Source of the DNA: Hexactinellida sp. DTS-2022
Lineage: Eukaryota; Porifera; Hexactinellida
Direction of reading: 5' to 3'
Length of the DNA: 64,000 nt
NCBI GenBank assembly: GCA_028753945.1
Contig: JAPNXP010000001.1
Span: 14,932,501-14,996,500, forward strand
Positions within the stretch are counted from its first letter, which is position 1. Each line of letters starts with the position of its first letter. The notes beneath the pieces are model-generated. The model saw only the letters and a program-made list of their open reading frames with translations, was not told where the DNA came from and did no database searches. Positions 23,956 through 46,200 of this stretch are shown here, one piece after another. Both the position numbers and the translations under genes were made by a program.

Positions 23956-24329
23956 TTACAAGTACACACTGTAGAGAGAGTCTACTGGTGAGTCTGTACT
24001 TGTATGCTCTACAGGAGTGCCTACTGGGGTATGTAGGTAGTGGTTATTATATTGTAAGATAGCGGCCAGCCTCAGGTCCCTACGACCATGATCCGCCCCA
24101 CTACCTTACAGGGCATTACATATTGTATGTGTGGTTTCGTCCTATCACAAGGACTCATCAGGAGGGTAACCCTCTACCACCATGTCTAGGCACCACCGTA
24201 CTTTCGTGCCACAGTGTCTTCCTACACTACACCGTACTGTCGCTACCTACATACCCCAGTAGGCACTCCTGTAGAGTATACAAGTACAGACTCACCAGTA
24301 GACTCTCTCTCTACAGTGTGTACTTGTAA
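23956..24329. repeat. Near-perfect inverted repeat enclosing hammerhead ribozyme A
   Basis: The left arm 23956-24040 and right arm 24243-24329 are inverted copies differing by one substitution and one 2-bp indel. About 200 bp between the arms contain the ribozyme on the minus strand. The arms start TTACAAGTACACACTG and end CAGTGTGTACTTGTAA. The flanks outside (GTGCGACCCCAAATTATAGC at 23931-23949 and ATTCCCGAGCTTT at about 24389) are close together in locus C (28461-28480, 28552). The inverted-repeat cassette therefore looks inserted into locus-C-like DNA. Confidence 0.88.
24131..24180 (-). ncRNA. Hammerhead self-cleaving ribozyme, type III (copy A)
   Basis: Reading the minus strand, stem III 5' strand GTGGT (24180-24176) is followed by A17 (24175). 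Stem I is GAGGG-TTA-CCCTC (24174-24162), then the core CTGATGA. Stem II is GTCCT-TGTGAT-AGGAC, then GAA and the stem III 3' strand ACCAC (24135-24131). All invariant core bases (CUGAUGA, GAA, A15.1-U16.1) are present. Predicted cleavage is after A at 24175 (GUA triplet). Stem III is the open stem, hence type III. Confidence 0.9.
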
Positions 24330-24517
24330 CACTCTTGTAAAGCGAAAGAAAATGTGTTTAAGTATTTTTAGTATGATACCGATGAGCAATTCCCGAGCTT
24401 TTGACCCAGCTGTATGTCATTCGCTTTGCATTCGTTTGCCTTGCGGACTTATTAACTGAGTCGCAAGACTCAGGGTACAAGCCCTAGCGGTATGAGTACC
24501 TGCGGAGTCTAGACGCC

Positions 24518-25436
24518 GGGTATAAGCGTGTTTTGGGTATCCAGCGATTTAGGGATCCCCGTCCCTAAAACGCTAGCGTTTTGGGCCCTCTGGATCGCTA
24601 AAACGCTAGCGATATAGGGACGGGGATCCCTAAATCGCTAGCATTTTGTGGTCGTGGGGTCCTTAAATCGCTAGTGATACAGGTACGCCAGTGTTTTGGG
24701 TATCCTCGTTTCTATGCCCTAAATTAATAGAGATTTAGGGACCTAAGTTTACATAAAGTGAGTACTTGATGATATATAGATAGGTAATTATAATTCCTAC
24801 GGTAGGCCTAACTAACACTACATTTCTTTGCAAATATCACACGCACCCTTATAGTTTTGGGTCTGTCCACGCCAGTATCGGGATCCGGCGATCCGCATAC
24901 ATTATTCGTGAACAATCTGCACATTGTGTCATTTTCCTCCTTCCTGAGTACGGCATTTACAAAATATATCGATCCTCTTTCTATTTTTGCTTAGAAAGAT
25001 TTTTCACTTTCTATTTTTCCATTTTTCACTCAAAAACTAAAGATAGTGAAGGATTTGGGCAATACAGTGCAACTTCGATTATCCGGACTTTGATTATCCG
25101 GACACTCTATGTTGGTCCCAACTGTTATGTAATTATTTTATCCGGACTCAATTATCCAGACTGTAAATTATCCGGACTGTTCCCAAAAAGTCCGGATAAT
25201 CGAGGTTGCACCTGTATATAGAAGACTATGCCTTGAGCGTATAGGTTGTATATGGTTGGCCTAGGGTATGCCTTGTGCCTATAGGTTCTATATGGATGGC
25301 CTTGGGTGGGGTCCCTATATCTCTGAATTGATCTCTATATCGCTAGCGTTTTTTGGATCCAAGGGGTCCCTAAAACGCTAGCGATATAGGGACGGGGATC
25401 CCTAAATCGCTGGATACCTAAAACGCGCTTACACCT
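24518..25436. mobile_element. Element with 80-bp inverted ends rich in CGCTAGCG palindromes
   Basis: The left end (about 24518-24597) and right end (about 25355-25436) are inverted copies, roughly 85% alike by eye. They share TATCCAGCGATTTAGGGATC and CGCTAGCG. Internal copies of CGATATAGGGACGGGGATCC add further palindromes. It is non-coding, with a pogo-type MITE nested at 25065-25214. No target duplication was identified. Confidence 0.65.
25065..25214. mobile_element. pogo/Tigger-type MITE, 'CAGTGCAACTTCGATTATCC' family
   Basis: It is flanked by TA at 25063-25064 and 25215-25216. Ends are CAGTGCAACTTCGATTATCC and, reversed, CAGGTGCAACCTCGATTATC. Repeated ATTATCCGGAC motifs lie inside. It is nested in the 24518-25436 element, hence younger. 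Confidence 0.85.
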
Positions 25437-25770
25437 GTCTAAAAAGGCTTGTGAGCTGGGGTTCCCACCTCCCCAGTGTTCTACTGGATAAGCATACTCT
25501 AGCGGAGTCTGATACAGAGTCGTTCCACAGTGCTGATGAGGGAGACTACTAGCGTAGGGTTGACTCTATTGAGGAGTGTATAGCTATTAGCTATGCTTAT
25601 TCATTCCTTATATTTATGCACTTTTGTAAATTATATTGCTGGTTGTATCATTAATTAAGCGGTTGACCCCATAAAGCGAGTCAACTGTAATTATATATCG
25701 CCCTACACACCTTTTCTAATGTAATTCATTGGCCGATATGTAAGTAAACCTTTAGCTTTTATACTACGTA

Positions 25771-25872
25771 CAATCAACTCCGCTTAATAGTGCTACCGGT
25801 TAATTGGTTTCTCCGCTTAATCGGGTCAAAACTACTTGGTCCCGAGGTGGCTCTATTAAGCGGAGTTGACTA
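25771..25872. mobile_element. pogo-type MITE, 'AACTCCGCTTAATAG' family (complete, 102 bp)
   Basis: Inverted ends CAATCAACTCCGCTTAATAG and, reversed, TAGTCAACTCCGCTTAATAG lie in a TA context. It is the same family as 16421-16580, 36355-36523 and 38511-38652. A fragment lies at about 25664-25690. Confidence 0.8.
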
Positions 25873-26338
25873 TATTTTGTTTTGTTTATATTAAGTGTTC
25901 TAAGAATAAAGATACTCTGTATCAAATATCAATAACTGAGTAAGACATTAACAATCATACCTTAGCCGGGTTTGAAGATGTCATAGTGCAAATCCTGACG
26001 TGACCTAATAGTCAGGGTTGACAACCCTCCCACTTAGGCGGGAGTCTCCCGATTTTTTGCCTCCCGCCAAACTTTTCTAATTCCCTCTTTTTTGGAAATT
26101 GTTTCTATATTTATTTTTACGATATATTAATAAATAACTGGATTTTTTTGCTAAAATTAGTCAATATACGAGTACCAAGGTTAGTTCTACTCATATATAC
26201 TTGTAAATTAGTTAAGATTATTTATCCCCTTGTTAATACACTGTACTATTATGTTTTAATTCGAATTTGGAAGGAATTCTTAAAAATATCCTGGGTGGCC
26301 TTGTGCCTACATCCTCCAGAAATTGTTATGCTAGATAT

Positions 26339-27663
26339 CAGTGGCAGCGCCAAGGGTGGTCAGCTGACCCCCTATCAAAGTGCTTGACCACCCTCCTGAC
26401 CACCCTGTAAGATGTTCATCTTCATTAATTTTGTTTTATCTATTGGGTATCATTTCTTTTGGCTATTCTAATTGATCAAACAAGAGATTTAGACTATGAA
26501 GTAATTATAAATACACTAATTGAGAATGATCCGCCTCTTATTATTAGCAAATTTGTCAATTAAAACGGCATGATCAATGTTAAGAGTTCTCTCTCTATTA
26601 ACTCCGAGAACTCCCAATCCCAGAAGTCTAGAATTCAGCATAGTGGAACGTTTGTTATCCTTGATACGGGCCATTAGGCTGAAACTCCTCTCATTAGATG
26701 CTGTGTGCATGGAAGTGGTAATTACTGCAATCTTTAAGCAGGAAGTGAGGGAAGGCATACATCTCTCAAAAGGAATTATATAATTTACCAATTCAAGAAG
26801 TGTTGTTGGAATATCTTCTTCTTCGGGACTAATCATGTTACTCAATATCTTTATCTGATTGATGAGTACCTCTCTCTCAATCTCCTGGTTCTTAATCAAG
26901 TTGTATAATATAGCAAACCGAGTAATGGCCCCAATATCCATGAAATTCACACTCTTGGGAGATAAAGCACCAATAGCAGAGTAGACAATATTGAGTTCAT
27001 CAGTCAGAAACCTCTGAGTGAGTTATTGACAACCTTCTGACATAACGGGATGTAGAGAAACCTCCGATAATGGTCGCTTCCCTCCCAGATAATCTGGCTC
27101 TCACCCCGATCTACTCTTGCACGGCGAATTGTCCTTGCAGGTAAAGTAGGCAAATTCCAAGATTCTATAATCTCATTAGCTTCTCTGTACAACTTGTCCC
27201 ACTCATCATCTGATTCTGGTAACATTGGTACCGTCAGCGCACTCTTCAAACCTCCAACTATTTCCTGAGATTGATCGATAATCAGATTATCCGATTGGAG
27301 ACCTTCAGCAACTTCGGTACACATACCAAGGATTCTCTTCAACACAACAAGGTGGATCTATATAGAGCTTCCTAGGCGTATACGGCGCCCAGCGCGCTTA
27401 CAAGAGCATAATATATTGTTCAATATTATCTAGGGATTCTAGGCGAGCGAGAAAAATTACAACCCCCATTTCGTAATTATATTAGCAAAAAATAGGCGTG
27501 AATGCTATTCTGGGCATATCCTGCATATGCGTAGCATATGGCGTATAGCTCGAGAAGCTAGATGAATCATGATTTAACTATACTATATTTGGTGTTTGAC
27601 CCAAAAATACACATGCTGACCCATGGGTGACCACCTAGTGGTGGAGCACACGCTCCGCCACTG
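26339..27663 (-). mobile_element. hAT transposon, internally degraded, with perfect 8-bp target duplication CTAGATAT
   Basis: CTAGATAT lies at 26331-26338 and 27664-27671. The element starts CAGTGGCAGCGCC and ends GCTCCGCCACTG, so both ends share CAGTGGC. It carries a broken transposase on the minus strand (26516-27357). At 1325 bp it is too short for an autonomous copy, so it is an internally deleted hAT. Confidence 0.9.
26516..27357 (-). pseudogene. hAT transposase fragment with C-terminal dimerisation domain, frameshifted
   Basis: The downstream frame (to 26516) carries the hAT C-terminal dimerisation signature, TASNERSFSLMARIKDNKRS followed by an LNSRLLGL stretch, as in ZMYM1-like hAT proteins. 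The upstream part (27345-27004) is in another frame and stops at 27004; homology appears to continue in a shifted frame near 27010-26950. The N-terminal zinc finger and catalytic core are missing, and no ATG starts either piece convincingly. It is a decayed remnant, not an active gene. Confidence 0.8.
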
Positions 27664-27939
27664 CTAGATATGATGCTGAATTCTTTTCTCGTTTAGTTTA
27701 TATGTCGATCTATGGATCATTAAGCTGTACAACGCATTTTACAAATCTGATGGCCTAACCGTCATGAAATTCCTTGAAAAAATGTCCATAAATTACGAGA
27801 ACTTTTGAATATATTTAAATCTGTTATATCTAGGCATATTAAATTTTTAAAACATTATTTGTAAAAAAATTAGAATTAATTTATCTACCTATTTCGTTTT
27901 ATTGTATTGTGACGGATCCTCAGGAGTACATAAGGTAAT

Positions 27940-28124
27940 CAGGGGCGTAGACACGGGATGGGGATTGGTAGGGCCATTGGGCCTAGACTCAGGATTGGTA
28001 GGGCCATTTATGCTAACTTGCATCATACTTAATAGAAGATGATGGCTCTTGACAAATTATTGTACTTAATTTGGTAGGGCCATGGCCTCACCAGTCACCA
28101 ACCCTACCGGAGCCTACGCCTATG
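27940..28124. mobile_element. hAT-like MITE, family 'CAGG-GCGTAGAC' (copy 2)
   Basis: Ends CAGGGGCGTAGACACGGGAT and, reversed, CATAGGCGTAGGCTCCGGTA, with TGGTAGGGCC boxes inside both ends. It is the same family as 3128-3278. It lies immediately upstream of ribozyme locus C. Confidence 0.72.
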
Positions 28125-28245
28125 AGGTTGAGAGCCTTATGTAGGTGGAAGTACAGGACACTACATAGACGAAGTAGTCTGTAGACTTGGTCCGACAGTA
28201 CGACTGGTAACAGATGCCGACGGGCATAGAGCGCGGAGCGCAGAA

Positions 28246-28297
28246 TGTGATCGAGGGTTACCCTCCTGATGAGTACCTGTGATGGGACGAAACCACA
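28246..28297 (+). ncRNA. Hammerhead ribozyme, type III (copy C, partly degraded)
   Basis: Stem III 5' strand TGTGAT (28246-28251), C17 (28252), stem I GAGGG-TTA-CCCTC, core CTGATGA, stem II GTACC-TGTGAT-GGGAC, GAA (28289-28291), then ACCACA (28292-28297). The catalytic core is complete, but stem III has an A-C mismatch (28250/28293) and stem II an A-G mismatch. Activity is probably reduced or lost. Compared with copies A and B it looks like an ageing member. Confidence 0.8.
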
Positions 28298-28356
28298 CAC
28301 ATAACATCCCTATGGGATGGGATCAGCCATAGCGACTAGTCCTCATACTAACTAGG

Positions 28357-28433
28357 TCGTGGACTCATCTCATAACATAATAACTACCGACGATATAACG
28401 CAGGAGTTATTATGTTATGAGATGAGGCCACGA
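28357..28433. repeat. 29-bp-arm inverted repeat just downstream of ribozyme C
   Basis: Arms 28357-28385 and 28405-28433 match 28 of 29 positions (TCGTGG, then CTCATCTCATAACATAAT, and its inverse). In RNA this makes a strong hairpin with a 19-nt loop, 60 nt after the ribozyme. Confidence 0.9.
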
Positions 28434-28479
28434 CATAAAATAGTCGGAAAACCGTAGGGGTGCGACCCCAAATTATAGC

Positions 28480-29136
28480 CTCTTACAATGCTACGGGTTG
28501 CAGCTTGGCTGTTAAATACTTCCCGATATACAATATTAATCGTATAGAGCCATTCCCGAGCTTTCTAACCAAACTGTATGGCACTCTTCTCTGCATATCC
28601 CTTCCTCCAAGCTTTGCCATCAGCGGTAGTAGTTATGCCTCCTGGTTTGTGACGAACCGGATCGCCTCGAGGCACCAACGTGGGATCCAACCACGTTAAT
28701 GTAAGCCCCTCGAGGAAGAACCATGCATTTTTTGTTTTGCCTGCGGATTCAGGATTGTTATCAATGTTTGGGTGAGCTCTCTGACTGGGTTGCGTTGCAT
28801 GATGTAGTAAATGAATAAGTAAAAATTGAACAAATTTATTAATTTAGGCTACGTAGTTGGTAATAGCCAATAGGATTAATATCCCAGTTGACAGTAGCCA
28901 ATAGGATTAGTATCCCAGTTAGCAGTAACCAATATGATTAGACCTTTAACAACTGGCTTATACATACTAGTGCGCAAACACAAAATGTTGTGTAATTCTG
29001 GAACTAACACCTTTTAGTGGAACTCAGTATATTTTCCGAGGCTTTCGATTGATATTTACTTCGTCAGGATCGGAAAATGCAGCAAAGAGTTACAGGGGCG
29101 GACGGATAGACAGACAGACGGACGGACGGACCAAGC
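28480..29136 (+). other. Structured non-coding remainder of ribozyme locus C, with three CCAAT-type repeats
   Basis: It holds palindromes (CCTCGAGG at about 28673 and 28709, AACGTGG/CCACGTT between them). About three tandem copies of a 35-bp unit at 28862-28941 contain AGCCAATAGGATTA. It ends in a GACGGACGGACGGAC tract at about 29100-29131. No open reading frame of note. CCAAT repeats could be promoter elements; that is inference. Confidence 0.55.
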
Positions 29137-29274
29137 TTTCATGATAGATTCAAAGAAATAGCATATATTTTGAGTCTCTCGCTTTTCCTTCTTCGACCTC
29201 TCGCTTTTTTGGTAAAACCTCCCTCAAAAATGGCAAAACCTCCCGCTTTTGATTTCCAGAAGTAAGCATCCCTG

Positions 29275-30309
29275 CCTAAATAATCATGTCCCTATCAGAC
29301 CTCCTAAAGTAAAGTTATGTTTTAATCAAAATCCCAAATTTTCAGTGCAACAATTAACCAACTCATAAAATATGGTGTTCTCTCAGATTTTAGCAGCTTT
29401 TATAGTTTATAGGGAGAACGAATGTGAGAGGGAACATTTTTGTTGATATCGTCAAGCATTTTCCATCCCACGAGCCCCCCGGTCCAGGTCGCTTCGCGAT
29501 GGATTAAATGTTAAAAAAATTAATTCGTAATCAGCAGTACTTGTTTATCTTTCCCACATTTGGAAGTTAATTTTTATTTCAAATATAAATGCGATTCAAT
29601 TTGTTTGGCTTAGCCAGAAATTGAAGTCAGCTTTACTGTTACTATGTGCACTGTGCATGTCTATTAATTTCGATGAGAGGAACCCACGAAACCTCGTGGT
29701 CCCGTTAGCATTTTTCCGAATTACGAAATGTTCGACACCTATGTAGGACGCAATTTTAGAGTAAAGGAGAGAACAATTTACAATTTACATAGGGTTTGTA
29801 ACTTTGTATATAGTTGAGTTCGCTTATTATTAATCCAATTTTTGATCCCTTGAATAATCTTAGTAAAAGAACAGACTGTATTTGGTTTATACAATTGACT
29901 TGTAGTGTACGTGTATAACATTTAATGGAGCTAATATATCATAATTACTGCAGAACCTCGTTTTAATATGAACACCAGGGGAGCGTCAAAATGTGTTCGC
30001 CTGATCCGGGATTCGCAAAAATCGGTGTCATTTATAATGAAATGGTTTAAAGGGGACTGAAATTGTGTTCGTATTACTATTATCAAATAATAAACAACAA
30101 CTGGAGTATATACTACAGTAGCTACTACGTATTAATTAATTAATTAATTATTAGAAGAGATTCGAATATACCCATTCAACTATCAATACAAACAAAGGAG
30201 TTTAATAAAGTACAATAATTAGCAGATATTCAGAAAAGGACATTGTAGTACACAGAAGAATTAATTCATATTACATATATGTAAATAAAAATAATCACCT
30301 TTAAAGTGT
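29275..30309. other. Spacer downstream of the NACHT gene, with repeat fragments
   Basis: No gene. At about 29467-29600 there is a degraded minus-strand fragment of the Helitron-like family (CGAGCCCCCCGG, GGTCGCTTCGCG, then ACTTGTTTATC and GGAAGTTA). At about 29950-30075 lies a pogo-type fragment (CAGAACCTCGTTTTAATATG ... TGTTCGTATTAC). A (TTAA)n run lies at about 30130-30150. Confidence 0.55.
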
Positions 30310-33300
30310 TCAGTTTCTGTATATAATCTTAACAGAGAACATTTCAGCTGTCTGCAGCACTAACTGTAGCGGGATAGGATCTGGATATGAGAGCTCAGGT
30401 TTGTGTATTCCCAGCAGTCTCAGGTATGGGAGAGCGTGTATTAGCATTGAGATAGGTTCACATGAGTTACTAGTTAGTTTGCATTTTATGATAGTTAAAT
30501 TCCTTAAAGCTGGATGGAGATTCAAGCTTTTACACAGAATCATGAATCCTGTGTCTCCCATTGGGATACCAATGAGACTCAATTCAACTAGGGACTGGAG
30601 ATATCTTACGGCAGTGTACCAGTAACTGATATCATTAGGAGGGAATGGACAACTATTCAGGGCTAGACGAACCAGTTTATGACAGGACTGTACGGGAGAG
30701 AGGATGCTAGTCCAGGTGTGGAAACCAACTGTGTTTAAAGCCAATAACAGTATATCTCTCAAGGAATTGCTGTTATTTCGAATAATCTCAGTTATATTGT
30801 GTCTGTAGGATTCTCTGTTAGGAAGTATGCGAGGAGAGTGTAGATTCAGAGATGTTAGTTTGCTGTTGTTAAGCAGGTATGGCAGTACAGAGTATGTATC
30901 ATTCATACGCCAATATAACTCCTGCAGAGAAGAGAGACCGAGTAGAATATCTGAAGGTATTGTAGGTACGGATGCATTAAGTTCCTCCATATACAATCCC
31001 TTAATATGAATGTTCTCATATATCAATCGGTAGATAATAAGCAATTCAAAATAATCAGATTTCGGTGCATAGTACACATTCTCAATAGAAGAGAACTGAT
31101 TAATTAGTTGAGTTAGGATTCCATTTGATACTTTAGACTGATATAATCTAATACTTCCTATGAATTGGTTCTGTGTAGAGAAGAGAGGAGTGGAAGGACA
31201 CATCTCTGTTAGCACACACTGATTGAGTCCGATACTAACCTTATAGTGTACGGATGTACCAGCTGATAGGAGAGTAGTATAGGACTGTATTGTTGTGTAA
31301 TCTTGTCTGTAGAAGCTTAGTGATAGGTAACTGAGGGAGCAGGAGGAGAGCTGTTTGATAAATGAACAGAATTGGATTGGATTGATTAGAATTGTGCGTA
31401 TATATACTATTTGTAGTTTCCTGATGTAATTCAGTGACAGCAGAAAGCAGTGCCATTCGTTAGGAGACACAGCATTATCGAAATAGAAGTATATATTCTC
31501 TGGTAACAGTTCTCTTAGGTAACGGAAATACTTTGGAATTAGCTGAGAGTTTGTCTCTATTATTAATGTGGATATAAGGAGATAAGACTTAATGAATTCC
31601 ATCCAATCGGAGACATTAACGAGGTTAGTAAGATAGTAGAGCTGATAAATCATAGGTAGTTCTATTAATGTCATTGTTTCTGTTGTGAGGTGATGACAGA
31701 TAATAGGAATGAGACAGGCAGCTCTATCTTCCAAGAGGCCGCAGAGGAATCGCACGACCATCCTATACATGGCAAACACTTCCTCAGAGCTAACCAGAAA
31801 TCTAATTATCACACATTCCTTTAACCAGTTCAAGTCGCTAAGATATACAGCTGCCATGTGTTCCTGAATTGTTAAATGAGCGAAGGTCCAAACATTGACT
31901 CTCTGGCCTAATTTCGTTATACTGACATGCACCTGCATGATGGCTAGTCGCTCAGTGGTGTATTCACTCTCGTCAATTCGAATGCGCATGTCCTCCTCTC
32001 TAGAGCTGAGTTCTCTATGGAATATTCCCTCGTATGCCTCGTAGCCTATGTCACGGATGCATTTCCAGATTGATGGGTGGAATTGGGACATCTTATGGAC
32101 TCTCGTTAGCCTCTTTAGCCCCATTCTAGCCAGCTGACGCCTGACTATGTACAGTATCAGTTCCGTGTACAGGTTTGTCAGCGTCTGAGACAGGATATTA
32201 GCTGTCTCGTTAAAGAGGGAAGAGAATAGACTGGCGTTTACGGGAACCAGCGACAGTTGATTTATTTCGTCGTGTCTGATAAATAGCAGTTTCGTATCTC
32301 GTAGCTTATCTGCTGTACAGATTCTCTTCTTAAAGTATGCGTCTCTGTCTGTTGGAGAGAATCCTAGCACCTGGTAGTTGGTCTCGACTTTCAACTCCTG
32401 ACCATGTTCGTTCCTGATGTTGCTCCAGGCACCGGGCCTGCTAGTCAGTAGGACGGTGGATCTACTCAGGCTGCGTTTCTGCAGCAGCGAGTACAACAGT
32501 GTGGTCTTAAACGGAACATCCTTAATGAATTCATCTGCCCCGTCAATGATTAGTAGCAGGCCCTCTCCTCTTGATTTCGCTATATACTTTGCCAGAGACT
32601 TGGACCATCTGATACCAACTGACAATGCAAGGAACAACCAGTTTTGTAAAAATATTTCATCAATTTTCTCTTCCTTCTCCTCTCTCGTTTTTTCCATCAC
32701 ATGCCATTCTTCGCTACGACAATGTATCAATAGAACGTAAGCAAAGTTGGTTATCTTGTTATTGCCATAAAGCAGAGCTAGATATTGGCACAAAAATGAT
32801 TTTCCAGAGCCTGGGTTGCCAATCAAGCATAACACAGTGGGTGTATTTGAGACGAGCGTCGAAATAATGTTAACAAAATCTACTACTTTTAATGACTTCT
32901 CCTTTTGGCTCATTGTTCTTAGGAAATCTATTTCATTAAGACTGGTATCATCACTCGACTGCATTACTATTTCTTTGACCACCGTTAGAGGTGTGTATAC
33001 TGAATCGAGAGAAATTGCCTCATCATCATCAAAGCGAAGATACACCTTTTCATTTTGTTGTTTCGTGTATTCCCTGAGCTTAACAACCCAGTTCTCTTGT
33101 TCCCCTCTGTCGCCGCTTTCAAGTTCGTCCATTAACAAATTCTGGAATTCTCCCTTATTCATCCCATGGAACACATGTGCGTGCTTGTGCACTTGTTCTA
33201 CAACATCATGTCTCTCTACAGCTATCATTGTGTCACACAGAATTCCCAAGTCAGGGCTTATTATTCCTCCTTCAATGGATAATTTCAAGGAATTTTCAAA

Positions 33301-33702
33301 GTTTAATTCTTGTGTCACTTCCATTGACAACCCACTCCCTATTATCATCTGCCATTGATTGGATGTTATTTCAGTTTTTAACATCCTAACAAATGTTTCT
33401 ACTGATGGAGGTACAATTTCGACTGGAAATCGTTCAATATTGCTAGGATTAAGCCATTCGAGTTTCTTTGCTACCCGGATTAGATCGGGTCTCCCTATCC
33501 TATTCAACGCATCGAGGAATTCATTGGGATTAAATTGACGTATTTCGTATTTCAAAGCGTATAGGAAAGCTGTTGGGTTATTTTTTGTTCTTTCTACTAT
33601 TGCGGGCGGTATTCCCAGCTTTTCCAGCAACAAGCGTACGTTTTCCTGAGTTAATGAATTCGAGAGTTCATTCATGAACTTTATTTCTTTAATGTTACTC
33701 AT
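30310..33702 (-). CDS. NACHT P-loop NTPase with N-terminal death-fold-like region (NLR-type immune receptor candidate)
   Basis: A 1130-residue single-exon protein starting at a genuine ATG (33702). Residues about 13-90 are all-helical with a DED/death-like end (DALNRIGRPDLIRVAKKLEW). A second helical patch at about 145-175 (SPDLGILCDTMIAVERHDVV) has a similar ending. After a VYTPLTVVKE linker typical of animal NACHT proteins comes the NACHT domain. It has Walker A GNPGSGKS (295-302), Walker B LLLIIDGADEF (382-392) and sensor TSRPGAW (420-426). The C-terminal half (about 700-1130) contains leucine-rich segments such as LTSLNLHSPRIL and LVELSLIGIPMGDTGFMILC, suggesting divergent LRRs. By family, this architecture senses ligands and oligomerises through NACHT; sponges carry many NLRs. 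Base composition is AT-richer than CDC27 or myosin. The death-fold and LRR calls are moderate. Confidence 0.88.
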   Translation of the reverse strand: MSNIKEIKFMNELSNSLTQENVRLLLEKLGIPPAIVERTKNNPTAFLYALKYEIRQFNPNEFLDALNRIGRPDLIRVAKKLEWLNPSNIERFPVEIVPPSVETFVRMLKTEITSNQWQMIIGSGLSMEVTQELNFENSLKLSIEGGIISPDLGILCDTMIAVERHDVVEQVHKHAHVFHGMNKGEFQNLLMDELESGDRGEQENWVVKLREYTKQQNEKVYLRFDDDEAISLDSVYTPLTVVKEIVMQSSDDTSLNEIDFLRTMSQKEKSLKVVDFVNIISTLVSNTPTVLCLIGNPGSGKSFLCQYLALLYGNNKITNFAYVLLIHCRSEEWHVMEKTREEKEEKIDEIFLQNWLFLALSVGIRWSKSLAKYIAKSRGEGLLLIIDGADEFIKDVPFKTTLLYSLLQKRSLSRSTVLLTSRPGAWSNIRNEHGQELKVETNYQVLGFSPTDRDAYFKKRICTADKLRDTKLLFIRHDEINQLSLVPVNASLFSSLFNETANILSQTLTNLYTELILYIVRRQLARMGLKRLTRVHKMSQFHPSIWKCIRDIGYEAYEGIFHRELSSREEDMRIRIDESEYTTERLAIMQVHVSITKLGQRVNVWTFAHLTIQEHMAAVYLSDLNWLKECVIIRFLVSSEEVFAMYRMVVRFLCGLLEDRAACLIPIICHHLTTETMTLIELPMIYQLYYLTNLVNVSDWMEFIKSYLLISTLIIETNSQLIPKYFRYLRELLPENIYFYFDNAVSPNEWHCFLLSLNYIRKLQIVYIRTILINPIQFCSFIKQLSSCSLSYLSLSFYRQDYTTIQSYTTLLSAGTSVHYKVSIGLNQCVLTEMCPSTPLFSTQNQFIGSIRLYQSKVSNGILTQLINQFSSIENVYYAPKSDYFELLIIYRLIYENIHIKGLYMEELNASVPTIPSDILLGLSSLQELYWRMNDTYSVLPYLLNNSKLTSLNLHSPRILPNRESYRHNITEIIRNNSNSLRDILLLALNTVGFHTWTSILSPVQSCHKLVRLALNSCPFPPNDISYWYTAVRYLQSLVELSLIGIPMGDTGFMILCKSLNLHPALRNLTIIKCKLTSNSCEPISMLIHALPYLRLLGIHKPELSYPDPIPLQLVLQTAEMFSVKIIYRN

Positions 33703-33928
33703 TGTCGTAATCTATAAATAATTTATGGGATGATTATTCCTCCCTTAAATCAACGGATAGACAAACCAATACTAATTTGTTATTCATTTCTTATAAGTAA
33801 TTGATCTTTAATGCATTGACCTCAAGGACCTATAATCAAAGGTCTGGCCGCATAAATAAAGAACCTGTTTACCATCCCCGTCCTCCCAATTTTTACCCTC
33901 CGTCCGGATATACTTTACTATTATCTTA
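33703..33928. promoter_or_regulatory. Upstream flank of the NACHT gene
   Basis: About 225 bp of AT-rich DNA between the NACHT ATG and a Helitron-like 5' end. It presumably holds the promoter, but no clear TATA box or binding site is recognisable, so this is positional only. Confidence 0.25.
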
Positions 33929-36194: not shown

Positions 36195-36354
36195 ATATTG
36201 TTATTATTTAAACAATTACAATAAAAATCATATTATATACATATCAGCAAATTAAAAATTATTGTTCAACATACTACATACATATTTACCTATTAAAACA
36301 TTTGGAAGATATGATCTGGCTCAAATAAAATGTGGTTTCAAAACAAACAAACTA

Positions 36355-36798: not shown

Positions 36799-37324
36799 CA
36801 GTCAGTTCTCTCTAATAGTCCCGACTCCCGAACTCTATTTGTCTAGCTTAATTTTGTTGTTAAATCATATTCAGAATTATAATGTTTCCGTCATAGTTTT
36901 CGAATTAATATTGCACTTTTTGATAGTCTATTAATTAGACTAGAATTAGAGTCACTCTAATTCTCTACTAGTACTTTTCTGTAATAATTTACTTTTCTTA
37001 TTGCGTGTATATTAATTTATATAATAATTCTATATCATCGATAGTAATCAAGTTAACGTCCACATGGGGACCCTCTAACTACAGGTGGACTAGCAGCAAG
37101 ACCTAATATATTTACGTAGTCTTATGCACAGTTCATATGAACATACAGTTCATATCCCCAATAGTCTGTTTTATATCCTAGATTTTAATTATTTGTACTA
37201 ATATTTTTCCAATGTCAGTATTATATAATACAATAGATGTTACTTAAGTTAAGTGTAAATTCTTTAATAGTCAATTTGTTCGTTAAACTTGGCCCACTGG
37301 TGGACTATTAGAGAGAACAAACTG
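36799..37324. mobile_element. pogo-type MITE, 'GTTCTCTCTAATAGTCC' family (526 bp)
   Basis: TA-flanked (36797-36798, 37325-37326). Ends are CAGTCAGTTCTCTCTAATAG and, reversed, CAGTTTGTTCTCTCTAATAG. Subterminal CCCACTGGTGGAC lies at the right. Non-coding. It is the same family as 46573-46993. Confidence 0.87.
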
Positions 37325-38510
37325 TAATTTGATGTTAGCGTTAACAGATGTTGCTGTTTTCAGCCCTATTATGAATTATATCACACATATCTGTAGGAAT
37401 GAAAGTTTGCTGTAGAAGTTAGAAAATTCCAATTATACTGTGATATCCAAACAGGCATATATAACAAGCAATTAATAATTCAATCCGTCTAGTATTAAGC
37501 AACTAGGCACTAGAGTATTCTTATTAATTATTAATGAGAAACTAAATATATAATCAATATCGCTACGAATCCAATATAGAGTGAATATGGTGGTACTACG
37601 TATTAAACAGTACATTGTAATTTTCAAACCATATCTGTAACATTGTACAGTCGACTCCGCTTAACTGGGTCATTTTTCCGCAACCGAGTCTATGGTAACC
37701 GAACAACAGGTGGCCGTATACATTTGTTTTTATTATCCGAAAATTTGTATTAACTTGATTTGTATTAAGCATTTACACTCACCTAATATTCGTACAGATC
37801 AATAATTCCCACGTTCATTTTGTACATTCACCAACATTTCAAACGAAGTACAGACTAAATAGGGTTTCGGTTTGATGAGACTCATAAATTGGTATATGAA
37901 TTAATAATTTCATAAAACTATTGTAATTTTTTTAATGTATATTGAGGTGTTAACCAAATAAACTAGATAATGAGCTCATTAAATATTTGTTTTGTTTACC
38001 AAAAAAGTGTTTCGAATCATGAAAGCCTGAATGCAGTCGGAATTACTCTTGCTGATAATTTCTAAACAATCCTACAATTAGTTGTTAACTTAAAGCCACT
38101 TTAAAATTTGTGCCACATGTACCACCTGTGGAACATGGTAGGGTATGCAGGCCATTATGAAAATGCCGACTCAAGATGGCCCCAAAGATTTAGTATAACA
38201 AGGTATTAACCAAACTTGAAAAAACTATATTTCTGACTAGTTTCACACATAAGTTCGCAACATATTTCCGCCATGTACCAATTGTGACACAGATTATTGA
38301 TTGGTACGAATACTTTTGGAGGACTGTTTATATTGGTTAGGGGAATTAAACCTTGTACTCATTAACCGATATTTCGCATATCCGTTTCGTACTTACCGGA
38401 GCTACTGTACGTCGTTATTCATATACGTATAAAGAATGCGATAATATAAATCAGTTTTCCGATATAAATTGTATAAATCCTAAATTTGATATTGCATCAA
38501 TATGCAGTAT

Positions 38511-38652
38511 TTGTACTTCGCTTAATAGGGTCACAATTTCACAGGATTTATAAGACGGAATTGTAGTTTGCCTTAAATATTTTGGGTTAATGGATTCTCC
38601 ACTTAATCGGACCAAAGTGACTCTATTAAGCGCAATAAGCGGAGTCGACTGT
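38511..38652. mobile_element. pogo-type MITE, 'CTCCGCTTAATAG' family (divergent)
   Basis: The left end GTACTTCGCTTAATAGGGTC and right end, reversed, CAGTCGACTCCGCTTATTGC bound the family's interior phrase TTTCACAGGATTTATAAGAC, also seen at 16421-16580. The left terminus is eroded. Confidence 0.65.
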
Positions 38653-38909
38653 ATTGTATTAAAAAAGTAAATAAAATAATAAGTTTCAAGTTTAAGCTAA
38701 CGAATGTATTATTTGAGACACTACATGCTACAGTGAGTAGGGTTGTATAAAGGAGCTTATGCCTAGACGTTAATCAGTGCGGCGACAACAAATGTTGCTG
38801 ACAGGTATCAACAACTAATGTACGTTAATAGATAATTATAATAGTAAATCAATATATAATTGTAACAGGTAAATAGTTTGTTTACAAGTCAAAATTTGTG
38901 CTTTTATTA

Positions 38910-39055
38910 CAGGCCCGTCGTAGGCCAATTATTATTGGTGCGGCCAAGTGACGTCACTTAATTGATTCGCAGTGTATAACCCGAATTATGATGCGGGCAC
39001 CTAAAATATTGTTGCGGCCTATGCCGCACCTGCCGCCCGTGTTCCTACGGCCCTG
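38910..39055. mobile_element. hAT-like MITE, 'CAGG-CCGT-GTAGG' family
   Basis: Ends CAGGCCCGTCGTAGG and, reversed, CAGGGCCGTAGG, with GCGGC/GCCGC boxes inside. 146 bp, non-coding. Confidence 0.65.
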
Positions 39056-39511
39056 TATTAGATATATATTTTCTCCTTAGGTACTAAAGCTCAAAAGCGG
39101 ACGAGTCGGATGGGCTCGTTAGATTAATAATCGCCATTTTAATTGATAAATGAAGTGCACACTATATTACATTTAATATACAAATCAGACTATACTTATG
39201 AATTAACCTTGTAATTCTTATTGTTATTTCATTGCAGGGCCTCTCGATATGCTGACAAAGTTGTCATTATGTACGGATGCACCATATACGTATAGTAGTT
39301 ATAAGTTACATGTCATAGTCTATAGATACATTTTATAATGGATTTAGTTCATAAGATCGCTTTGTTGTCTTCGGAAATTAAATTTAGACCAAATGGTAAC
39401 AGAACCCAGTGCCCGACATGTGCCTAGAAATTTATAGATTTAGATTCGTTTGTTGTTTGCCTACAAATGTAAATACACTCAAACCTCGAGATCCAGACCT
39501 CTCAGCAGGCT

Positions 39512-39995
39512 TGGGGCTGATTACGATTACAACCGTAATCGATTGTAATCGATTACAACTTTTCCTGTAATCGTAATCGTAATCATAATCAAGCTTTTCT
39601 TAAAGGATGTAATCGTAATCGTAATCGTAATCACCCAAATCAGCCCCAGGTATGGCACCAGGCCCCCCCCCCCCCCCCCAAAATTTTCCACAATAACTTT
39701 AAATAAGGATATAGTTGAGGGTTCGCTGATCTCATTGCACCTCCAAATATATATCCGGCCCCTACAAATAATTCTTGGTGGCTCCCCCATGCACACTGGC
39801 ATTATTTTTCGTGCGCATGAAACTCCGGGGCTTAATCGAAACAATCGTAATTGCATCGTAAAGAAAATGAATTGTAATCGATTGTAATCGACTACAACAT
39901 TTCCTGTAATCGTAATCGTAATCATAATCAAGCTTTTTCTGAAGGATGTAATCGTAATCGTAATCGTAATCACTCACTAGTAATCAGCCCCAGGT
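39512..39995. repeat. Element dominated by GTAATC hexamer repeats, internally duplicated
   Basis: Two blocks (39512-39652 and about 39836-39995) each hold CGATTGTAATCGA..., TTTCCTGTAATCGTAATCGT and AATCAAGCTTTT, then (GTAATC)n and CAGCCCCAGGT. GGGGCTGATTACGATTAC at the left is inverted against ATCAGCCCC at the right. A C run (39662-39679) lies between the blocks. The hexamer makes the strand alternate between self-complementary GATTAC/GTAATC tracts. Confidence 0.8.
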
Positions 39996-40378
39996 CTGCC
40001 TCTCAGATATGGCACCTCCTTCAACCGAAACCTTTATTAGTATCAAGCTAAGTATTATGCCTTTATTTAAGCAATAATAAAATAAACCGATAAGTTAGAA
40101 TAACCCGAGTTAGAAAAAACCGATGGAAATTAAGTATAATAACGAATTAAATAAAAAGTGCACTAAAAATTGGTTAGAAAAAACCGATAGTTAAAATAAC
40201 CCGGTTTCAACTGTACCAGTCAAAGAATTTCTGAGATCTGGGGAAATTCCCAGTTATGGGCACCCTCCGGACGACAGTGCACGAATAAGGGAGGTTTAAG
40301 TAACTCCATAGACGTAGTAAAATAATAATTTACCTCCTTAGGATTTATGCGGCTCAATCTTAACAAGGAATAGAACTA

Positions 40379-40528
40379 CAGTCGAAGCCGGGTTTTTCTA
40401 CCAATTCTTAGCATGGAAATAATGTAAGAAAATCCACTAGTTAGAATAAATGATTGAAAATTTCTTCTTTAAGGAATTTCTTACACCTTTAGTATAAATA
40501 GTTAGTTAGAAAAAACCGGTTTCGACTG
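40379..40528. mobile_element. pogo-type MITE, 'CAGTCGAAGCCGGGTTTTTC' family
   Basis: TA-flanked (40377-40378, 40529-40530). Ends are CAGTCGAAGCCGGGTTTTTC and, reversed, CAGTCGAAACCGGTTTTTTC. 150 bp, non-coding. A partial relative lies at 40086-40213. Confidence 0.86.
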
Positions 40529-41334
40529 TATGCTAGTAATGTTATATTATAATTTTAACATTAGGAATCGGGTATATATCGAGTCATTAATTCACGAAAT
40601 AAACAAAAGATAACTCACTTGGTGTATTAGTTTCAAATGGTCAACAGTGTTGGTAACTGTAGTGTTTTAGAATCTAAACATGTAAATAACAATAAAGATA
40701 TACGTGTACCTATAAAAGTAATAATTATATATTTTAATGTTTAATCAGTAACAAATATTTAATGCAATTGATATGGTTAATAATAATATACTTATATTTT
40801 TCATTTTTTGTTACTATTGTTTTAAGAATAATGATTCCAATTTAACACATGTCTTTCCAAAATATTGTAGTGAACGCAGACTTCCATCCATGCGGCATTT
40901 TCTTCGCTCCTAGATATATTTGAGCTCACTTACATGCCCTTAGTAACTAGTTTACGCGAGTATCACATTTCGTGCCACTAGAAAGATTCATTACAAATGT
41001 ATGCGGTTCCTGACCAGTCGCACGCGTATGAATGAAACATTGGTAATACTTCCATACTGGTTGTGTTAACATAATTATATTGGGATTTCATTAAAATAAT
41101 TCAGATAAGAATCTGCTTATGGAGTCAGTATAAACCAAAGTTCATTCTTACACTGAATAATTGGTTAAGCGATTAGCTCTTTAATAGACTAAATAAATTA
41201 AGATATTACAGATGTAAGAACCATATCCCTTAGAACTATTCGATGTACAGTAGGGAAGTTGTCGGTATCCGGTACAGGAGGTAGTAAATCTATAGCAACT
41301 ACTGAAACTAAGAGACACATAAACCAGGGTTTTT

Positions 41335-41453
41335 TAAGGTTGAGACCTTGGTATAACTCAGTACTGCAGCGGCAGCGGCCGACCCGAATCGTGGTGTAAC
41401 TCTCAAAATCTTGGTGCAACTTTTACACCAAAATCGGCCTTAAAAAAACCCTG
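41335..41453. mobile_element. hAT-like MITE, 'CAGGGTTTTTTAAGG' family
   Basis: Inverted ends CAGGGTTTTTTAAGG and, reversed, CAGGGTTTTTTTAAGG surround a 119-bp body with GTGTAACT/GGTGCAACTTT motifs. Non-coding. Confidence 0.75.
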
Positions 41454-42928
41454 CAAAAACATATATGACGAATCGAGTAATCGAATCGAGTGGCTCATTG
41501 CATAAATTAAACACTATTAATGGCTGTAGATCGTCACAAAATCACAATGACAGAGAAAACAGAAATAAATAAATATAACTGTGAATTACTTAGAAATAAA
41601 ATTTGTACAACCTGTAGCTTACTTCGTTTGTTTGCTCTAAATTAAGTTGTGCTTTTTGAGTAGATTGAAATTCTTGAAATGGATTGAGCTTGACTTGAGC
41701 CTTGATTATTTTGAGAATATTGTATCCTATAAACATAGCATAGTAAGTACACAAAATTTCGACAAATAATAAATATCCTTTAACTAATTTCATGAAACAG
41801 AATACAAACATATTTATCATTAAAATATAGTAGCAAATAGTATATACGTGTAATACAACCAAATATCCCTCATTGTTTCTATTGAAACAATACATTCAAC
41901 ATGCATTTACGTACAATGGGAAAGGCACACTTCGTTTCCCCCAATATATTTTCCCATTTTACTGATTTTGTCTCCTATATGGTATAAATGGATAATTAAT
42001 CAACCATTTATAGATTTTAAAAACACTGAGAAGAAAAATAAATGCTATAACATACACTAAAATAACTGTGAAAAGATTTAATTGAAACTCACCTGTTAGT
42101 TTGCTACAAAATCTCACTTCTCAGCGGTAGTAGCTTAATGAGAAGAATGATTCGTAAGAATTGATATTTGATTGATTCGTCGATTCAGAAGGTTTACTTG
42201 TCGGATTTACTGAGTTACGTACAGTAGTGTATTACTAACATTCAGCCAGTGAATATATATGTATACAAGATAGGAATAGTATCTGCATACATTATACAAG
42301 CTGTGTATTCTCAGAATAATAGTCTCGTGGTGCGTCTAACTCTGTTATAGAGCAGTGGAGATGGTACTCAGTTCATTAGATCGTATAACATATTACGTAA
42401 ATACTGATCTCAATTCAACCAGAACACGATTAAGTTGTTCTTTAGAAAACAGGCTATTGCGTGAATAGACTCAATTCCTAATATTTGTGTTTACAGTCCT
42501 GCGGTCTTCGCGAGGGATCACACTCTCACAAAGACCGCTTTACGGACTTTGTTTGTCGACGCGACCTTAGTCTCCCCAAATATCCATTCATTATGAATAA
42601 GATAACCTGTGGTTAGTAAATTATACTAGATTCCGTTTGATGTGTTCATCGTTGCGTGTAAGTCAATGTGCGCTACGCGACCTTACTCTCCCGAAAATAT
42701 CCATTCAATAAGAATAAGATATACCTGTGGTTAGTAAATATACTAGATTGATTAATGGAACATGGAAGCCAAGCTTGGATTACACAATAAGTAATTTACC
42801 AATCCAGGATTTAGCAGCTCATAATCTATCATCTAACAATCAGAAAAATACAAATATGACACATTTCATTTAATAGTTTTAGCAAAATATACGTTAAAAT
42901 TATAATTTGCAATATGTTACACTATGTA

Positions 42929-43092
42929 CTCCTGTTATAACGAAGTCGGATATAACGAAATCCCAAGTATAACGAAATGGAGATTTTCTTCCAGGGCACT
43001 AAATGCATTAATTATTATCCGCTTATAACGAATATCCAGATATAACGAAGAAATTTACAGTCCCAAGCACTTCGTTATAACGAGAGCTACGT
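42929..43092. mobile_element. pogo-type MITE with TATAACGAA repeats
   Basis: The left GTTATAACGAAGTCGG and right CACTTCGTTATAACGAG are inverted. The interior repeats GGATATAACGAA and ATTATTATCCGCTTATAACG. The terminal bases are less clear, so the limits are approximate. Confidence 0.65.
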
Positions 43093-43140
43093 AGGTATAT
43101 TTGAACTAATAGAGTCAAATTGTAAATTACTAAGTAAAGG

Positions 43141-44481
43141 CAGGGACTTCTTTAATATAGGGACTGTAAACTTCGTTTTACGGAAAAATTAGCGTAGGCC
43201 TAAAACAGTATTGTTACTTATTGATATCCCGTAATCCGCTAATGCTAGACACAGGAAATGTATTATTGTCGTATAGGAAGTCATATTTTGGGAGTCCAAC
43301 GGTCATATTGGTCTATCGAAAATATTTGTGGAATGTAAGTTATGCGATTTTCACACCCTTCCATATATGGTAATATTGTTAAAATCTCGAGATTACTTAA
43401 CTTTATACATATGAAATGTATCATTTTCGTACAGGAAATCATATTTTTGGAGTCCAACGGTCATATTGGTTTATCGAAAATATTTGTGGAATGTAAGTTA
43501 TGCGATTTTCACACCTTTCCATATATGGTAATATTGTTAAAATCTCGAGATTAGTTAACTTTATCCATATGAAATTTATTATTGGCGAATGGGAAATGGG
43601 AATTCATATTTAGGGACTCAGTAGATCACATTGATTTATCTAAGGCGTTCCCCTTAGCCTATATTATTATTTTGGCACTCTCCACAGGAGGATTGCCCCG
43701 ACCCTGTTTTGTAGTTTTGCTAATTCTTACCTATCAGATATATGTCATTATCTTGTTTATTAAAAAATATTGATAAGTTTCTTTCAAATCTATATTTAAA
43801 TCAATGTTGTCCAATAAAATTTATTAAGTGGTGATGAGAAATGGATTTAGGACTACATATTCTAATAAAATTCAAAAAAATTTAATACTTTATACATTAA
43901 TTTCCCAATAACTCTGCTGTTATTCAACAGACCGGCTAACTGGTTAATAAAATCTCTAACCGTTAACAGATGTCAGCAACGGTTAACCGGTTAACCGAAT
44001 CCAGCCTTGTTGTTTTTTAATAAACAAGATAATGACATATATCTGATAGGTAAGAATTAGCAAAACTACAAAACAGGGTCGGAGCAATCCTCCTGTGGAG
44101 AGTGCCAAAATAATAATATAGGCTAAGGGGAACGCCTTAGGTAAATCAATGTGATCTACTGAGTCCCTAAATATGAATTCCCATTTCCCATTCGCCAATA
44201 ATAAATTTTATATGGATAAAGTTAACTAATCTCGAGATTTTAACAATATTACCATATATGGAAAGGTGTGAAAATCACATAACTTACTTTCCACAAATAT
44301 TTTCGATAAACCAATATGACCGTTGGACTCCCAAAATATGATTTCCTGTACGAAAATGATACATTTCCTGTGTCTAGCATTAGCGGATTACGGGATATCA
44401 ATAAGTAACAATACTGTTTTAGGCCTACGCTAATTTTTCCGTAAAACGAAGTTTACAGTCCCTATATTAAAGAAGTCCCTG
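43141..44481. mobile_element. Fold-back element with very long inverted arms
   Basis: The left arm (43141-43771) and right arm (about 44016-44481) are inverted copies. Outermost is CAGGGACTTCTTTAATATAG, and GTAAAGG lies on both outsides (43134-43140 and 44482-44488), a 7-bp target duplication. The left arm holds a 158-bp internal tandem duplication (TATGCGATTTTCAC at 43341 and 43499) that the right arm lacks. The spacer 43772-44015 has GGTTAACCGGTTAACCG. No transposase frame. The CAGGG ends suggest hAT-related mobilisation. Confidence 0.85.
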
Positions 44482-44488
44482 GTAAAGG

Positions 44489-45083
44489 ATACCGTGTGAT
44501 GTCATGTTTATAATATTTCGCTTAGAATAAATATACCCTTGTTACTATGAAACAAATTTTAAAGTTCTCTAGGCCGTATGGTTTTTCCAATTCATTCCAT
44601 ACAAGAGATAACTATTTCAATATTACGTAGATATTAGACAGGTACAATTTATAACTATGGCAGTTGAGATACGTACATGCAACTCATTGTAATTAATATT
44701 TCGTGACATTCCAATTGGTTTACTCGATGTATTTATTTCTTTGAATATCTAGGAGACACTTTAGTACTCGTGTATCAGTTAATGGTCTCAGTTAACACAG
44801 TTATGCAAATCGATTACTTTATAAAGTTGTCCATATTAACAACTACGCCGTATGGAATTTAATCTTTGAATTCAAATATCTAACAATAGAATTTCTCTTC
44901 ATAGTTTATATTACATTGTTAGCAGAAGAAGCAAGGAGGACTTACCATAGTAGTAGAAACTATTAAATTACATCTAATTATTTCTCAGACTATCCTTCTG
45001 GTTCTCCTATCTATTCAGATCTAGCATGCTAGCGAAGTCAACAGTTACTAATAAGTCATTTAAAATATATGTCATTCACTACA
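44489..45083. other. AT-rich spacer
   Basis: I see no gene, RNA or repeat structure here beyond general AT-richness. Confidence 0.5.
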
Positions 45084-45510
45084 TGTTAATAGTATCATTG
45101 ATTGTTACGGACTTGAAACCTCTTGTCGGCCTTGTACATTGACAGTAATTCCTTGCTGAATTTGGTAACGAGTAAATCAAAATTGGAATCCCAATAGTTC
45201 AGACGTGACGTCATAATACCATAAATCGTTATACCTTGGTTTCATTGTATGTTGTCGTCATCTAAATTGAAGGCGAATTGGACAAAAACTGAGAGTTATT
45301 CCAGAATGGTGCATTTTATGACGTCATAATCCCGTTATTTTCGTTTAGAAAACCAATAGATCGTTGTCAGCGTGTAAATTAACCCCTGTATGCATTTTTC
45401 GGATTTACCGAGCTTATGGCCTTACTATTAATTCTAGACAAATACACACACACACACACAAACTGAAAATAATTGTGTCTAGTATAGTAATACAGTCTGT
45501 TCTCTCTAAT
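45084..45510. repeat. Left copy of a direct repeat flanking ribozyme locus B
   Basis: The segment from GTTAATAGTATCATTGATTG through GGTAACGAGTAAATC, GACGTGACGTCATAAT, CACACACACAC and ATTGTGTCTAGTA to TCTGTTCTCTCTAAT recurs in the same order at 46191-46590, by eye roughly 85-90% alike. Confidence 0.8.
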
Positions 45511-45839
45511 CATAGACTACTTTAATTAAGGACTGTAGGCTGCCAGCTCGGGTCCAGGAACTTGGGTCCATTGTGTCTTATTGATATCTCTTAATCCGAT
45601 TCATTATTTGTTATTAATATTAGTGTTGTTTTACGGCATCAGAAGTTTGTTAAGCCATCATTGGTTTGTTAAACCAGCCATTGTTACTGATTTAAATCTG
45701 TAGGAGGTCCAACTGGTTGCTTTCCACCTTTTACACAGTCGCCCAAACAATTCAAAATGTGATTCACGCACAAATATTTCTCTTGGATCTTTGAGACTCC
45801 CTGGATTATTTGGCATTGCCTCAAGGGCCCCAGGATTCT

Positions 45840-46200
45840 CTCACGGGCCCTGCCGGTAGGAGGTCAGGCTCCTACCGCCAGTGGGATAATATCCCCGTGG
45901 CAGCCGGTACACTTCCCTGTTAAGGAAGAAGGAGTGTAGTATCGGGGCCGGGTTAGTGTTGTTATGGAGACACACCCGGCAGGAAGCACGAGTGTCGTGA
46001 TGGAGACACCGTGGCAATAAGGAAGCGTGACCACCCACAGGCGTGAGTGGAGTCATGGGGTCGAGGGTCACCCTCCTGATGAGTTCCTGTAATGGAACGA
46101 AACCCCACTAGTAGGTTATGTACGCTACTAGTCTACAGTTGCCCATCGTCGTAGTCTCCGTTACTACAATTGGTGCATTCACCAATGCAGTAGTTAATAG
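45840..46200 (+). other. Structured RNA-like region around ribozyme B
   Basis: Successive hairpins: GGTAGGAG (45855-45862) with CTCCTACC (45869-45876), GGGATAATATCCC (45883-45895), ACTAGTAG/CTACTAGT around 46107-46132, and GGTGCATTCACC near 46171. GC content is well above the surroundings. No coding frame. Apart from the ribozyme core, the sequence is not clearly alignable with loci A and C. Confidence 0.65.
46056..46107 (+). ncRNA. Hammerhead self-cleaving ribozyme, type III (copy B, intact)
   Basis: Stem III 5' strand TGGGGT (46056-46061), C17 (46062), stem I GAGGG-TCA-CCCTC (46063-46075), core CTGATGA (46076-46082), stem II GTTCC-TGTAAT-GGAAC (46083-46098), GAA (46099-46101), stem III 3' strand ACCCCA (46102-46107). 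All three stems pair without mismatch and every catalytic-core base is present. The predicted cut is between C46062 and G46063 (GUC triplet). Confidence 0.92.

Follow-up and report, generated by a model that had tools for sequence, protein, structure and literature searches.

What carries the type III hammerhead ribozymes that lie scattered through a stretch of a hexactinellid sponge genome? The window considered here is a 64,000-nt stretch of Hexactinellida sp. DTS-2022 (assembly GCA_028753945.1, contig JAPNXP010000001.1, positions 14,932,501 to 14,996,500, forward strand), in which an earlier note described three of these self-cleaving RNAs as a dispersed family. Judged by its sequence context, each of the three is housed in a long terminal repeat (LTR), and the LTRs belong to three different non-autonomous LTR retroelements of small size. 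The identity of these elements as LTR retrozymes (non-autonomous LTR retrotransposons that are small and non-coding and carry a type III hammerhead in both LTRs) is well supported, and we consider it highly likely. The elements are very probably mobile. The earlier reading had not recognised the features that reveal the carrier of the ribozymes, namely LTRs, target duplications, primer sites and purine tracts.

Hammerhead ribozymes in the window and in the host genome

The coordinates and folds first given for the three loci are correct. All three match the Rfam model RF00008 (Hammerhead_3), with the catalytic core and three stems, stem III being open, that characterise type III. One copy passes the gathering score of 48.5 bits and two fall slightly under it (Table 1). 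In the copy at 46055..46108 on the plus strand, cleavage is predicted between 46062 and 46063. In the 28246 copy, mismatches interrupt stem III (A.C) and stem II (A.G), and this ribozyme may thus be impaired. The cleavage triplet of the 24131 copy is GUA, which is permitted by the rule, given in the excerpt of PMC7761336 available to us, that H is A, U or C. The ribozymes are dispersed, as proposed, but they are not one family: the copies fall into three LTR types (E, A and D), which rules out a single family of three, and hundreds of cores are present genome-wide.

The core pattern CTGATGAG-N10-40-CGAAAC occurs exactly 372 times in the 112.4-Mb host genome, compared with four matches to the reversed control, and a chance origin is thus excluded. 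A genome-wide search with the Rfam type III covariance model, which the earlier note had put forward as a check, recovered further copies: 64 of the 68 candidates scored exceed the cut-off, a lower bound given that there were 12,319 first-look candidates. Selection for the fold, at first suggested from pair-keeping changes between window copies, is supported on a wider basis. Among 55 distinct 56-nt copies, 780 of 880 stem cells hold standard pairs, whereas 500 column shuffles gave 734 on average and never more than 747; because the copies are related, the shuffle overstates significance and serves as a guide only. The set was assembled without a pairing filter and still includes truncated copies as well as one match that is evidently due to chance; type B, in which stem II has other lengths, is not represented. 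Within stem II, one pair occurs as C-G, T-A, A-T and T-G, and another as C-G, T-A and T-G.

A fold kept by pair-keeping changes is also what might be seen in domesticated host ribozymes that regulate nearby genes. However, an element that needs its ribozyme to move would also show selection for the fold, and the copies are scattered through the genome, with target duplications at their flanks and in many cases almost the same sequence. We regard domestication as extremely improbable.

Type I hammerheads (RF00163) gave no match in the genome with 73 of 14,702 candidates scored, and the control for this search was also silent. A divergent type III hammerhead was identified near position 1500 of locus L007. 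It has a different stem I (TAGTTC/GAACTA) and stem II, and may represent a further LTR type.

Organisation of the LTR elements

Alignment of the flanks of the best Rfam loci reveals a shared unit, the best copies of which begin TGTGACGAG or TGTTATGAG and finish CTCATAACA, and 4-bp repeats lie beyond its ends. The LTRs fall into at least six types (A, B, C, D, D2 and E), and the element ends are TG...CA. Complete copies consist of two direct LTRs with one hammerhead in each, a short non-coding interior, and a purine tract before the 3' LTR. Two-LTR copies were identified for type A (L040, L061), type B (L059, L060), type C (L086) and type D2 (L084, L085), and as a D/D2 chimera (L083). Core substitutions affect the first hammerhead of L086 and the second hammerhead of L060. 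The type B copy L059 measures 302 + 73 + 302 bp within the duplication CTAT, the type A copy L061 measures 330 + 174 + 330 bp within TACT, and the type D2 copies L084 and L085 measure about 222 + 149 + 222 bp within the 5-bp duplications ACATG and GTTAC; the type C copy L086 is flanked by AAAC. Several insertions look young, as their LTR pairs are nearly identical (L059 300/302, L061 329/330, L040 324/325, L084 220/222, L085 217/221). Identity is lower in L060 (292/300) and in the chimera (190/215).

Searches of the genome by type, in which 40 candidates each were scored and matching pieces rather than copies were counted, returned at least 66 pieces for type A (384 candidates), 47 for type B (72), 51 for type C (320) and 51 for type D (249). 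Identity to the query is 97% or more in 32 of the 51 type C pieces, one of which is the query itself.

Also identified were several unusual arrangements. Locus L083 combines a type D 5' LTR with a type D2 3' LTR within one 5-bp duplication, which suggests template switching between types. On contig C11, loci L060 and L066 have flanks that are near-identical by eye, one around a complete type B retrozyme and the other around a solo LTR, and this duplicated pair suggests LTR-LTR recombination. Type C copy L041 is a tandem dimer with a 4-bp duplication. Positions 2554-3086 of L050 hold an inverted dimer of the type A unit, one arm of which is without a hammerhead, as would result if copying had jumped over the structured ribozyme.

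The ribozyme LTRs might instead belong to complete coding LTR retrotransposons, the short elements being their deletion derivatives. At least 150 integrase domains are encoded in the genome, many in long open frames, which would fit such an origin. However, only 73-174 nt separate the LTRs in seven of the two-LTR copies (all those named above except L086), and the exact 18-nt tRNA-Gly site described below is found seven times in the genome, always beside a hammerhead LTR or remnant. Furthermore, when 102 hammerhead or LTR places listed by hand were compared with the 150 listed integrase domains, four were found no more than 8 kb from such a domain, which is near the roughly two estimated by chance, although the list of potential helpers is incomplete. 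We consider an origin by deletion unlikely.

Primer sites, purine tracts and target site duplications

A primer site and a purine tract are the usual hallmarks of reverse transcription in LTR elements. The 18-nt primer site TGGTGCATTGGCCGGGAA of types B and D begins no more than two bases after the LTR, and it is exactly the site expected from the host tRNA-Gly(GCC) gene (L079). The 18-mer has seven exact copies in the genome, with none for the reversed control, and all seven directly follow a hammerhead LTR or LTR remnant. The hammerhead appears intact in four of these (L048, L080 at 802, L081 at 570, and L082) and is truncated or broken in the other three (L042, L080 at 593, and L081 at 1511). 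L059 and L060 are among the copies in which the site carries one or two changes. Type D2 has the primer site TGGCGACGAAGGTGGGAT, present in L084, L085 and the chimera L083. It is complementary to the 3' end held in a tRNA-Ser(GCT) gene (L103) if the mature end is TTCGTCG; ARAGORN placed the end two bases further. In types A, B, C, D and D2, inspection by eye shows a purine tract immediately upstream of the 3' LTR. No tRNA genes were found within or near the elements at the eight loci examined.

Target duplications of 4 bp are characteristic of types A to C and of 5 bp of types D and D2. Exact duplications flank 28 of 40 solo LTRs, comprising 24 of the 33 of types A, B and C (14/16, 6/7 and 4/10, respectively) and 4 of the 7 of type D; these loci were selected as good matches rather than at random, and duplications were scored on outer flanks with ends set by hand. 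With partners shuffled, the 4-bp set gave 0.97 exact duplications on average and at most 6, and the 5-bp set 0.56 on average and at most 4. Composite copies carry an exact duplication in 10 of 13 cases.

Transposases can also make 4-bp duplications, and the hammerheads could be passengers of DNA transposons that resemble miniature inverted-repeat transposable elements, with terminal inverted repeats. Some type A copies do have short inverted termini (L024 begins TGTTATGAG and others end CTCATAACA), and long inverted repeats surround the 24131 copy, L003 and L006. This reading does not, however, account for the purine tracts and the 18-nt sites that match two host tRNAs, or for direct LTR pairs that, apart from the chimera L083, are 97-99.7% identical, or for the 5-bp duplications of types D and D2. 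It is nearly excluded for types B, D and D2, and we find it very unlikely overall.

Some observations weigh against the reading as LTR retrozymes. Primer sites for tRNA were made out in types B, D and D2 and not in types C and E, and type A has none at the expected place (the comparison did not extend to all host tRNAs). The 5' and 3' LTRs of type C differ at their 3' ends (L086, L087), and the proportion of type C solo copies with exact duplications is low. Among the composites, L012 and L082 lack a duplication and L060 matches at three of four bases. Type E is known from L006 and the window copy alone, and a duplication is shown in neither. Finally, no helper element was found by nearness to integrase domains, with 150 of 706 integrase candidates scored.

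Predicted RNA circles and proposed life cycle

Cutting at two hammerheads is predicted to yield circles of 486, 504, 375, 374, 238, 311, 380, 372 and 371 nt. Their GC content is 51-59%, versus 39.7% in the window, and 64-70% of their bases are predicted to pair. Folding z values range from -1.7 to -7.9 (40 dinucleotide shuffles each), the weakest being that of the type C copy L086. The interior is non-coding; the longest stop-free run in the nine circles is 118 aa, on the minus strand. A simple pattern search of the nine circles detected no minus-strand hammerhead core.

The size of the predicted circles, their strong self-pairing and the type III hammerheads are reminiscent of viroids, and the Rfam consensus also has a 3-nt loop 1. 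The copies could be infectious viroid-like (retroviroid-like) RNAs that were reverse-transcribed by chance and integrated. The lack of a minus-strand core noted above counts against such an origin, as do the integrase-type ends, the exact duplications at most solo LTRs, the primer sites and purine tracts, and the many dispersed copies of several types. We assign it only a very slight probability.

For LTR retrozymes, we propose the following life cycle. Read-through transcription, or transcription from an LTR, would give an RNA with two hammerheads. Each of these, to judge from its fold and core, would cut itself and so free a unit of 238-504 nt, which a host ligase or the ribozyme itself may close into a circle, as precedents in plants and animals suggest. 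The circle would then be copied using the reverse transcriptase and integrase of a host LTR retrotransposon. Priming sites visible in the sequence point to tRNA-Gly(GCC) as the probable primer in types B and D and to tRNA-Ser(GCT) in type D2; in type A, a hairpin at the LTR end may serve instead. Integrase would insert the cDNA, leaving the TG...CA ends and the duplication of 4 bp (A-C) or 5 bp (D, D2) that are seen at the insertions. Partial, complete or multiple turns around the circle could generate solo LTRs, LTR-interior-LTR copies and multimers, all of which were observed.

Type A hairpin and palindromic insertions

In type A, a hairpin of 16-17 pairs spans the LTR end, and two-sided changes among its variants keep the pairing. 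The arms are CATAACATAATAACT/AGTTATTATGTTATG in L040 and the window copy, CGTAACATAAGTACT/AGTACTTATGTTACG in L061 and L062, and CATAACATCTGTAC/GTACAGATGTTATG in L003. An inverted LTR follows on from the 3' arm in L040, L003 and the window copy (28371). At this position type C (L086, L087) shows, by eye, no more than a weaker hairpin with interruptions.

Three insertions are palindromic, are bounded by an LTR start on either side and have a correct duplication: L040 (CTAT), L048 (CAGG) and L087 (CTAG). The same arrangement without a duplication occurs at L012 and L082. This suggests that palindromic cDNAs also form and integrate. We tentatively raise the possibility, which we think somewhat less probable than its converse, that type A, and perhaps other types, gave up tRNA priming and that the circle primes itself. 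The 3' arm of the hairpin, being complementary to the LTR end, would prime reverse transcription of the same circular RNA molecule. Fold-back cDNAs, palindromic and with an LTR start at both ends, would then be inserted by integrase with normal target duplications. A simple link between hairpin and palindromes is opposed by the fact that palindromes are not restricted to the hairpin type: L048 is a type B copy with a tRNA site, and L082 is of type D.

Relationship to known elements

The comparisons made here draw on excerpts of the cited papers. Plant retrozymes have LTRs with type III hammerheads, 4-bp duplications, a primer site for tRNA-Met and a purine tract, and metazoan repeats are described as being without such motifs, except for a full tRNA-Gln in schistosome repeats (Cervera, Urbina and de la Pena 2016, PMC4918200). 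The sponge elements resemble those of plants in the placement of the type III hammerhead in the LTR (300-400 bp in plants), the 4-bp duplications, the primer site and purine tract, the non-coding interior and the many solo LTRs (PMC4918200). They differ in their animal host and in the use of sites for tRNA-Gly and tRNA-Ser rather than tRNA-Met, and the RNA circle, demonstrated for plant LTR retrozymes, is predicted here (PMC4918200). The predicted circles are 238-504 nt, compared with 600-1000 nt in plant retrozymes (PMC6155905). Also unlike the plant elements, as far as these are covered in the excerpts, are the type A hairpin, the 5-bp duplications (D, D2) and the palindromic insertions with two LTR starts.

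Animal retrozymes are described as non-LTR elements with type I hammerheads (Cervera and de la Pena 2020, PMC7229834; PMC7761336; 2024 review PMC11722881). Like the sponge elements, they comprise hammerhead-bounded units of a few hundred nucleotides in animal genomes, with predicted stable circles; they are of type I, form tandem arrays and are without LTRs, primer site or purine tract, whereas the latter three are present here (PMC7229834). Helenus and Ajax, of the TRIM type, are likewise small non-coding LTR elements in animals. Helenus has a primer site, a purine tract and 4-bp duplications, and Ajax has 5-bp duplications in nemerteans; their LTRs contain tRNA-like or 5S-derived sequence, whereas the LTRs described here contain a self-cleaving ribozyme (PMC10886601).

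The earlier note suggested that a type III hammerhead family in a probable sponge would be new. Within the literature searched this holds for LTR retrozymes in an animal, but not for type III hammerheads, which are already reported from Drosophila pseudoobscura, other dipterans, termites and delta-like agents (PMC7936874). In the delta-like, termite and dipteran ribozymes, helix I is longer and bears an additional hairpin and loop pairing, and the excerpt of that paper does not place these ribozymes in LTRs (PMC7936874). No report of LTR retrozymes in an animal was found in titles and the starts of abstracts of the open-licence PMC articles that the literature searches returned; subscription journals and preprints are outside this scope. 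An exact 27-nt pattern had no match in prokaryote genome contigs, nor had an exact 24-nt pattern in viral contigs. As these collections consist of prokaryote genomes and viral contigs, the lack of matches says little about relatives elsewhere.

Animal LTR retrozymes would break the divide, in the literature searched, between LTR elements with type III hammerheads in plants and non-LTR elements with type I hammerheads in animals. This kind of element may have arisen repeatedly, may be old, or may have crossed kingdoms; each possibility is testable in genomes. The two tRNA primers, the hairpin alternative and the many recent-looking copies would make this a good system in which to study how retrozyme circles return to DNA.

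Copies in the window and other features

The features of the window copies are given in Table 1. No target duplication was seen at the type E LTR at 24053..24331, and none is shown for any of the three window copies.

Table 1. Retrozyme features of the window, with the basis of each assignment (L numbers denote loci used for comparison).
Feature	Position	Strand	Basis
Type III hammerhead	24131..24180	-	In type E LTR; RF00008 47.3 bits, E 2.9e-7, just below gathering score
Type E LTR (TGTTACAAGTACACACTG...CGCTATCTTACA)	24053..24331	-	95.5% to L006 over 24042-24331; ends by eye
Inverted fragment of type E LTR start, forms 87-nt inverted repeat	23953..24043	+	Sequence comparison
Type III hammerhead	28245..28298	+	In type A LTR; RF00008 43.0 bits, E 4.9e-6, below gathering score
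Type A LTR, first 52 nt unrecognised, ends ...CTCATCTCATAACA	28142..28377	+	Two pieces, 83% and 88% to L040 LTR
Hairpin at type A LTR end (CATAACATAATAACT ... AGTTATTATGTTATG), replacing tRNA primer site	28371..28419	+	Same in L040
Inverted LTR-end fragment continuing hairpin	28413..28432	-	20 nt identical to inverse L040 LTR end
Type D retrozyme, partial interior	45853..45934	+	92% match (45853-45992, into LTR) to L042 after primer site
Polypurine tract AAGGAAGAAGGAG, abutting type D LTR	45922..45934	+	Sequence
Type D LTR (TGTAGTATCGGGG...GTTACTACA) with hammerhead	45935..46168	+	97.5% to L082 LTR over 238 columns
Type III hammerhead	46055..46108	+	In type D LTR; RF00008 57.7 bits, above gathering score
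tRNA-Gly primer site remnant TTGGTGCATT, ten bases, 3' of type D LTR	46170..46179	+	Sequence; complete in L042, L082

Direct repeats at 45157-45526 and 46223-46602 (86% identical) flank the type D retrozyme and lie outside it. They may represent a pair of elements that is older and unrelated to the retrozyme.

Eph receptors are animal proteins, with possible exceptions among close holozoans. An Eph receptor gene is encoded in the window (60235-63354, minus strand, 1039 aa, no visible introns), and an animal host is thus supported. Ephrin ligand-binding, Eph transmembrane, tyrosine kinase and SAM domains were identified above their cut-offs, and Ephrin_rec_like below its cut-off. In a comparison with the PDB, the best chain is named as an EGF receptor, and Eph receptors make up most of the 60 sequences listed. 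A Wnt family search gave no match; its control was also silent.

Also present on the minus strand are long open frames without visible introns for a PDZ-myosin (5849-12337, 2162 aa) and a NACHT protein (30310-33711, 1133 aa), and a fragment (26516-27022) with a match to the hAT transposase dimerisation domain (E 1.3e-4). A long palindromic stretch occupies 49641-49875. Rfam microRNA-like matches near 49650 were dropped, as they arise from this palindrome and lie below gathering scores. An inverted repeat pair at 43141-43767 and 44013-44481 (94-97.5% identity) may be a fold-back element of recent origin. At 1672-2484 there is a tandem array of units of roughly 142 bp, which has an inverted counterpart, with up to 94% identity, some 20 kb away at 21200-22431.

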